Positions 13,408 to 15,264 of a stretch of DNA of 64,000 nucleotides are shown here, in pieces. Each line of letters opens with the position of its first letter. The stretch's first letter is position 1. The stretch is from NCBI GenBank assembly GCA_944393255.1, contig CALXZP010000009.1:1-64000 (forward strand), read 5' to 3'. This stretch comes from an uncultured Clostridia bacterium (GTDB taxonomy: Bacteria > Bacillota > Clostridia > UBA1381). The notes beneath the pieces were generated by a model. It saw only the letters and a program-made list of their open reading frames with translations, had not been told where the DNA came from and ran no database searches. Made by a program: the position numbers and the translations under genes.

Positions 13408-13424
13408 CGTAATATTATCGTAAC
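13408..13424 (+). promoter_or_regulatory. WalR-like direct repeat, copy 1 (CGTAAT-N5-CGTAAC)
   Basis: Two hexamers, CGTAAT and CGTAAC, are separated by five bases, giving the 11-base period of a WalR (YycF) box. The first base of each hexamer is C, whereas the published consensus is TGTWAH. An inverted AATATTACG lies just upstream at 13385-13393. The site lies about 240 bases upstream of the -35 box. Confidence 0.45.
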
Positions 13425-13554
13425 AATTATGGGTTAATAATAATGAAAATGTCTAAAACGGGGGGTCATATTTGGGTAACTGTACTGCATGTTTTAAAAT
13501 GGAAAAGAGAAAAAAGGAAATAAGTCTCAAATGCAGTTGAAAAATAGGAGGCAA

Positions 13555-13571
13555 TGTAACAGTACTGTAAT
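13555..13571 (+). promoter_or_regulatory. WalR box, copy 2 (TGTAAC-N5-TGTAAT)
   Basis: This copy matches the WalR consensus TGTWAH-N5-TGTWAH exactly, with spacer AGTAC. It lies about 95 bases upstream of the -35 box of the NlpC/P60 gene. WalRK controls wall hydrolases in Firmicutes, which suits the downstream gene. Confidence 0.65.
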
Positions 13572-13585
13572 AAAAAAAGGCTTAT

Positions 13586-13602
13586 GTTACAATTGCATTA
13601 CA
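13586..13602 (-). promoter_or_regulatory. WalR box, copy 3, opposite strand
   Basis: Read on the minus strand the site is TGTAAT-GCAAT-TGTAAC, again an exact TGTWAH-N5-TGTWAH match. It lies 15 bases after copy 2, so the two form a converging pair. Confidence 0.6.
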
Positions 13603-13630
13603 CAAAATATTAAATAACCTTAAAAAATGT

Positions 13631-13647
13631 CGTAATATTTTCGTAAC
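13631..13647 (+). promoter_or_regulatory. WalR-like direct repeat, copy 4, next to the -35 box
   Basis: CGTAAT-ATTTT-CGTAAC repeats the copy 1 hexamers with the same 11-base period. It ends 16 bases before the -35 hexamer, a normal place for an activator. Confidence 0.55.
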
Positions 13648-13663
13648 TTTTTTTAAAAAAGGC

Positions 13664-13692
13664 TTGACAATGCGGCGATTTAATGATACAAT
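13664..13692 (+). promoter_or_regulatory. Promoter of the SLH-NlpC/P60 gene
   Basis: TTGACA at 13664-13669 and TACAAT at 13687-13692 are spaced by 17 bases. Transcription from here leaves a leader of about 230 bases before the ATG at 13930, which is unusually long for this window. Confidence 0.85.
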
Positions 13693-13835
13693 ATCACCTG
13701 TAAGGTTTTAAAGAACAGATGATACATAATACATTGGGATGAAGATTTACATCATATAAAGGTTTTAGACAGAAACATTCAGCTTATTTATATCGGGAAA
13801 AAATAGGAGTTTATAAAGTATCACAAAGAAGAACA

Positions 13836-13906
13836 AAGGTTATTCCGGGAAGGCTAGTCAGCCGTCAGATCGCCCGGAGCGAGAAACCTTCGGCATTGTC
13901 CGGAGG
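13836..13906 (+). promoter_or_regulatory. Structured leader RNA of the NlpC/P60 gene, class not recognised
   Basis: Three nested stems can be drawn: AAGGTT/AACCTT (13836-13841 with 13885-13890), CCGGG/CCCGG (13845-13849 with 13873-13877) and GGCT/AGCC (13852-13855 with 13860-13863). TCCGG at 13844-13848 could instead pair with CCGGA at 13900-13904, just before the ribosome site. It does not match the ydaO c-di-AMP or c-di-GMP riboswitch cores I know. The wider interval 13347-13929 holds no gene. Confidence 0.45.
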
Positions 13907-13929
13907 TGAAAAGGAGAGATTAATTCTTT

Positions 13930-15264
13930 ATGAAAGTCGTACAGAAAATGATTCTCAGTGCATTTTCATTAGCTGCGGTACTCGGCACATCGGCAATGGC
14001 TGCTGATCTCAGCGGCTGGGCTGTATCGGGTTACCAGGCAGCAAGTGAAGCAGGCTTGGTTTCATATTCGGTTGTATCGAATAACTTAAAGGATTCCATA
14101 ACCCGTGAGGAATTCTGTGAACTTGCAATGAATTTGTACAAAAAGCTTACCAATGAAACAGTACCGGTACCGGCGGGATCGCCGTTCACCGATACGGACA
14201 GCGTAGCGGTCGCACAGGCGTATAACTACGGTATAGTCCAGGGAACGGATGATAATACCTTCACCCCGGACAGACTGGTGACCAGAGAGGAAATGGCAAA
14301 GATGCTCGTAAGCACTCTGACTGCCAGCGAGATCGTATTCAATATTGCCGACGGCGCGGATACTTCATATGTAAGCGAATTTTCGGACGGCGGCGACGTC
14401 AGCTCGTGGGCGATGTCGTCGGTCAATACAGCGCTTAATTATGGTTTGATAACGGGTGTTACGGATACCACGCTCCAGCCGCTTGACGCTACGTCGAGAG
14501 AACAGGCTATCGTCAGCGTAAACAGATCGTATTCGCAGTTCAGCACATCATCGTATGCTGTTGCATCCATGCCGGAGATAATACTTCCGGAAAACGGAGC
14601 CAATATCGATACTGAAAGCTTCGAAGTAAAGTGGAGCGGGATCTCGGAAGCATCGTCATACCATGTGATAATCAAAGATTCTTCTGCTAAAGCAGTGCTT
14701 TTAAAGGATGTTGACACAAATTCAATAACGGTTACAAGCAGTGCTTTGTCGAAGGGGGATTATTCGATAATCGTTGGTGCAGTGCTTGCGGACGGTTCTG
14801 AGGTATACAGCCTGCCGGTGGATTTCACATATTCATATAAGGCGGCAGCTTCAGCGCTGAGTGCGCAGAGCGCTCATTATACAGTATCTGATCCGGTAAT
14901 ACAGAATGTTATAGATACGGCCGAAAGCTTTTTGGGTCTCGGCTATGTTTGGGGCGGAACAACTCCTGCGGGATTTGACTGCTCGGGATTTGTTCAGTAT
15001 GTTTACGGACAGAACGGATACAGCCTTACAAGAACTACATATACCCAGTGGGATAACGACGGTACGTTCGTTTCAAAGAGCGAGCTGAAGCCCGGCGATC
15101 TCGTATACTTTGGCTCCGGCGGTTCGCCTTCACACGTTGGTCTGTATGTCGGCGACGGTATGATGATACATTCGCCCAGAACAGGTGATGTTGTAAAGTT
15201 CTCAACTATAGAGAGCGGATATTACAACGACTCTTATATGGGTGCAAAGAGAATTGTAAACTGA
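13930..15264 (+). CDS. SLH-anchored NlpC/P60 peptidoglycan hydrolase
   Basis: Encodes 444 residues. A signal peptide (about 1-24, ending AMA-ADL) precedes three SLH repeats (about 25-200), then a fibronectin-like beta domain (about 215-300), then an NlpC/P60 domain (about 320-444). The catalytic triad appears complete: Cys351 in DCSGF, His402 in SHVGLY, and His414 in MIHSP. NlpC/P60 enzymes cut D-Glu/meso-DAP-type bonds in stem peptides. Four WalR-like boxes and a 230-base leader precede it, so control by the wall-stress regulator WalRK is likely. AAGGAG lies about 14 bases before the ATG, a long spacing. Confidence 0.9.
   Translation: MKVVQKMILSAFSLAAVLGTSAMAADLSGWAVSGYQAASEAGLVSYSVVSNNLKDSITREEFCELAMNLYKKLTNETVPVPAGSPFTDTDSVAVAQAYNYGIVQGTDDNTFTPDRLVTREEMAKMLVSTLTASEIVFNIADGADTSYVSEFSDGGDVSSWAMSSVNTALNYGLITGVTDTTLQPLDATSREQAIVSVNRSYSQFSTSSYAVASMPEIILPENGANIDTESFEVKWSGISEASSYHVIIKDSSAKAVLLKDVDTNSITVTSSALSKGDYSIIVGAVLADGSEVYSLPVDFTYSYKAAASALSAQSAHYTVSDPVIQNVIDTAESFLGLGYVWGGTTPAGFDCSGFVQYVYGQNGYSLTRTTYTQWDNDGTFVSKSELKPGDLVYFGSGGSPSHVGLYVGDGMMIHSPRTGDVVKFSTIESGYYNDSYMGAKRIVN

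Follow-up and report, generated by a model that had tools for sequence, protein, structure and literature searches.

What protein reads the four copies of a 17-bp direct repeat that precede a single wall hydrolase gene in this uncultured Clostridia bacterium, and what does it do to the gene? The initial annotation of the window, which is the whole 64-kb stretch of DNA analysed here, had proposed WalR-like boxes at 13408, 13555, 13586 (minus strand) and 13631, and all four were recovered at exactly these coordinates. It is likely, in our judgement, that they belong to a WalR regulon whose box has a Y form particular to this lineage, and that the proximal box activates the window gene. The features of the region are as follows.

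13408-13424, plus strand: box 1 (distal), CGTAATATTATCGTAAC, CGTAAT-N5-CGTAAC; from the motif scan, with a box at the matching place in the orthologue of genome G042.
13555-13571, plus strand: box 2, TGTAACAGTACTGTAAT, TGTAAC-N5-TGTAAT; from the motif scan, with a box at the same place in the G041 and G042 orthologues.
13586-13602, minus strand: box 3, inverted, TGTAATGCAATTGTAAC, TGTAAT-N5-TGTAAC; from the motif scan, with place and strand kept in four congeners.
13609-13625, plus strand: candidate degenerate half-sites ATTAAA (13609) and TTAAAA (13620), which keep the 11-bp register of box 4; read by eye.
13631-13647, plus strand: box 4 (proximal), CGTAATATTTTCGTAAC, CGTAAT-N5-CGTAAC; from the motif scan, with its position kept in 13 of 13 congeners.
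13664-13692, plus strand: sigma-70 type promoter, TTGACA-17-TACAAT; from the sequence, kept in orthologues, with a predicted start site.
13699-13929, plus strand: expected 5' leader, with a hairpin abutting the ribosome-binding site; from the sequence and congener comparison.
13930-15264, plus strand: target gene, a 444-aa SLH-NlpC/P60 wall hydrolase; from a domain search (two SLH stretches and NlpC/P60).

The putative boxes would be tandem binding sites of WalR, the OmpR/PhoB-family response regulator of wall homeostasis. Each is a direct repeat with the 11-bp period of a WalR-type site, and two WalR DNA-binding domains would lie head to tail on one face of the DNA at YGTAAY half-sites one helical turn apart. 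The WalR (YycF) box of B. subtilis is likewise a direct repeat of GTAA-type hexamers with a 5-bp spacer, and wall hydrolases are among its targets. Boxes 2 and 3 fit the B. subtilis consensus, TGTWAH-N5-TGTWAH as quoted in PMC9210968, without a mismatch, as had been claimed, whereas boxes 1 and 4, correctly described as pairs of CGTAAY hexamers at an 11-base period, miss it at the first base of both half-sites, with C for T. With C or T allowed at this base, half of the window boxes fall outside the Bacillus consensus; the 17-bp S. aureus motif, TGTHH-N6-WGTNDD, also has T first (PMC10746227). Box 4 begins 33 bp before the -35 element (start to start), and to the eye it looks like part of a longer array with half-sites at 13609, 13620, 13631 (CGTAAT) and 13642 (CGTAAC). 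The promoter does have the consensus form that had been ascribed to it, and the gene behind it does encode a wall hydrolase.

The proposal of WalR sites had hinged on the presence of walR in this genome. Thirteen OmpR-type regulators are encoded there, and ten of them were covered by an NCBIfam scan. Among these ten, the regulator at C67:20881-21579 has the best score for YycF, 318.4 bits, which is under the 340-bit cut-off of the equivalog NF040534; the adjoining kinase has WalK as its best family and matches it over the full length, at 393 bits against an equivalog cut-off of 725. Because both proteins score below the NCBIfam equivalog cut-offs they are named homologues only, and it is in this sense that a walR-walK pair, with YycF and WalK as best families, is present. 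The WalR homologue occurs once in this genome and once in each of 65 of the 70 family genomes, and its recognition-helix region is identical to that of solved VicR/YycF at 18 of 18 positions, compared with at most 12 of 18 for the other 12 regulators (segments chosen by eye from the sequences). MtrA of Actinobacteria is another OmpR-type regulator of wall genes, with GTAAC-type direct repeats as sites. The highest MtrA score among the ten scanned regulators was 249 bits, under the 300-bit cut-off of the equivalog NF040689; for the C67 regulator the YycF score is 318 bits and the MtrA score 249 bits, and the recognition-helix region of MtrA is only 10/18 identical to the VicR/YycF reference.

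The boxes could belong to a different OmpR-family regulator that binds and activates in the same manner, most plausibly the conserved pair on contig C14, which has a D,D-carboxypeptidase-like gene as its neighbour, or the C33 regulator, but we regard this as unlikely. The C14 and C33 regulators score about 251-254 bits for YycF, and the former occurs as widely as WalR does, in 66 of 70 genomes, so that co-occurrence does not tell the two apart. Their recognition-helix regions, however, are 12/18 identical to VicR/YycF, versus 18/18 for the WalR homologue. Furthermore, a relaxed box is found in 20 of 29 walR upstream regions (1.1 in shuffles), whereas the C14 regulator's own promoter has no strict box and a relaxed one in just 1 of 30 cases, on which ground a C14-regulator regulon was rejected.

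If WalR is the binder, its effect can be predicted from position. In S. aureus, WalR sites located 5' of the -35 element go with activation, and sites between or 3' of the promoter elements with repression (PMC10746227). By this rule the window gene would be activated, walR, whose box lies just 3' of the -10 where inspected, would be negatively autoregulated, and the gene for a G5-3D protein (see below) would be under mixed control. Phosphorylated WalR would probably occupy the proximal box, whose centre is near position -60 relative to the predicted start, and recruit RNA polymerase to the consensus promoter, thereby raising hydrolase expression during wall growth, with the three upstream boxes providing added occupancy. 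The sign at the window gene is not certain, because a C. difficile NlpC/P60 gene with two predicted WalR sites is repressed on WalR overexpression (PMC9210968). The C. difficile WalRK system, also from Clostridia, is similar in having predicted sites 5' of an NlpC/P60 gene and S-layer-type wall proteins in its regulon; its sites were predicted with the Bacillus motif and the NlpC/P60 gene is repressed, unlike the Y-form box and the activation proposed here (PMC9210968). Perhaps, then, the boxes are repressor or dual sites, at which a WalR loop or array over several of them lowers hydrolase expression while the system is active. Several spaced boxes, one of them inverted, would suit such an arrangement, as would the C. 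difficile precedent, but we think it improbable in view of the location of all four boxes 5' of the -35, the position tied to activation in S. aureus (PMC10746227), and of -35 and -10 elements that are themselves free of boxes.

The third and weakest alternative is that such repeats are expected in AT-rich intergenic DNA and that their clustering is meaningless. The loose motif YGTWAH-N5-YGTWAH occurs 4 times in the window versus 1.07 expected (none of 100 shuffles reaches 4), the strict motif YGTAAY-N5-YGTAAY 4 times versus 0.13, and the published T-only motif twice versus 0.18. Boxes 1-4 are the sole matches in the 64 kb to both the loose and the strict motif, which bears out the claim that no other gene of the window is preceded by such boxes. 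Genome-wide, the loose motif is barely enriched (60 sites versus 48 for the reversed control), and little weight therefore attaches to single loose matches; for the strict motif the figures are 13 and 4. Over 16 genomes of the genus the strict count is 125 versus 82 for reversed controls, so that most single strict matches are background, and the enrichment that the initial annotation had proposed to test is weak at this scale. It is strong at orthologous wall-gene promoters: strict sites number 34 in the window-gene set (present in 24 of 28 upstream regions), 19 in that of an SH3-NlpC/P60 gene (11 of 11) and 27 in that of the G5-3D gene (26 of 29), versus 0.02-0.12 sites in shuffles across the three sets, counts that come from related genomes whose promoters partly share descent and are hence not independent, a kinship that the shuffles ignore. 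Chance may be dismissed, despite the modest loose-motif excess in the bacterium's own genome, on the strength of the strict cluster, the conservation in orthologues and the phasing of the half-sites.

The conservation upstream of orthologues that had been anticipated extends to fixed spacing. The proximal box lies 33-34 bp 5' of a consensus -35 (TTGAC) in all 13 congeners read by position, the 31-bp distance between boxes 2 and 3 recurs in the close relatives G041 and G042, and the 45-bp distance between boxes 3 and 4 recurs, on the same strand, in four congeners. When the bases of the proximal box were counted by position rather than by pattern matching in the 13 congeners, the first base was C in 10 and T in 3, the second was T instead of G in 4, and the twelfth was C in 5 and T in 8. 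Because C and T alternate at one aligned position in orthologues, C at the first base looks equivalent to T, in support of the earlier suggestion that the hexamer with C is this lineage's form of the site. This alternation at fixed positions, together with constant spacing within otherwise divergent DNA, would argue that selection, and not descent alone, maintains the boxes. It also suggests that the first-base T of the Bacillus consensus is non-essential in this lineage, in which case searches with the Bacillus motif miss sites here. Half-site lags over the target gene sets peak at 11, 22 and 31-33 bases, as tandem OmpR-type proteins along one DNA face would produce, and these peaks are absent in the control set. 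A half-site spacing of 5 bp dominates all gene sets; the other strong spacing in the G5-3D set, 14 bp, reflects a second box.

Elsewhere in the genome, the initial annotation missed two more wall-gene promoters as well as nrdD, murA and walR. Eight of the 13 strict genome sites fall in three multi-box clusters, each 5' of a wall-remodelling gene, namely the window gene (4 strict sites), the SH3-NlpC/P60 gene on contig C14 (2 strict sites and one loose) and, on contig C67, the gene for the G5-3D protein, a relative of RpfB/YabE-type wall proteins (2 strict sites). Boxes thus stand at several wall hydrolase promoters and their orthologues, as in a WalR regulon. Across the 16 genomes of the genus, six genes account for 57 of the 125 strict sites, counting those in the 600 bp before each gene: 21 at the window gene, 21 at SH3-NlpC/P60, 7 at nrdD, 5 at G5-3D, 2 at walR and 1 at murA. 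The remaining 68 are no evidence for additional targets, since reversed controls alone produce 82 matches. WalR probably also acts on the SH3-NlpC/P60 gene, the G5-3D gene, nrdD and walR itself, and perhaps on murA. As a strict-motif target murA was rejected, with a strict box in only 1 of 16 orthologues; half-sites two turns apart occur in 9 of the 16 upstream regions.

At the G5-3D promoter the boxes are at 0/11 and 31/42 around the -35, and the second fills the spacer between -35 and -10. This paired arrangement, with the boxes offset by 31 bp (L080 3129-3190, G000:C67), is seen in most family members, and a search of 391 class genomes with one exact pattern found no exact copy of this double-box promoter outside the family. 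In SH3-NlpC/P60 orthologues (L074 3600-3907, G000:C14), GTAAY-like half-sites occur directly 3' of the -10 and also upstream of the promoter, and this placement on both sides suggests mixed control of that gene.

The least expected member of the box-bearing set is nrdD, which encodes the anaerobic ribonucleotide reductase. Its orthologues carry strict boxes in 12 of 30 cases and relaxed boxes in 23 of 30; as many as four half-sites are lined up there at the 11-bp period, apart from an NrdR-like box, and in some genomes this array abuts the -35. To our knowledge, nrdD does not belong to the WalR target set of B. subtilis, and a literature search for a link between WalR and ribonucleotide reductase returned nothing relevant. 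The S. aureus WalR regulon is similar to the one predicted here in joining wall autolysins to DNA synthesis, with the sign again predicted from position relative to the -35; the replication link is through dnaA and hup in S. aureus (PMC10746227), whereas here nrdD has the boxes and dnaA, which has no conserved box, was rejected as a target. That WalR, by acting on nrdD, directly links the supply of DNA precursors with wall turnover in this uncultured Clostridia family is a tentative proposal, with somewhat more to be said against it than for it, and the nrdD boxes offer a direct way to ask whether WalR ties wall growth to DNA synthesis outside staphylococci. Overall, the sequence evidence supports a regulon of the known WalR type in a new lineage, one whose box has the Y form and whose most surprising member is nrdD, and thus a conservation-supported predicted WalR regulon with a defined box, YGTAAY-N5-YGTAAY, for an uncultured gut Clostridia group.

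Sites were also seen at two recurrent places where a target is not evident. One, with strict sites, is the interval that separates miaA from a small convergent gene (MYQSYSYSN...), in four genomes (L078 2418, G000:C40; L229; L233; L235), and the other is 3' of a small gene downstream of a yqgF-like gene in three genomes, where the sites are at L085 2386 (G000:C12), L218 and L228. One congener carries a window-gene paralogue (L237, G035:C112) that is likewise preceded, at a distance of about 160 bp, by a strict box.

A c-di-AMP riboswitch was considered for the window gene's leader and rejected, as no Rfam family reached the gathering threshold and matches at a relaxed threshold were at chance level. 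Within the leader (13699-13929), a TATCAC stretch and the ribosome-binding region GAAAAGGAGAGAT are both invariant, and the hairpin just 5' of the latter keeps its stem while its sequence varies among congeners.
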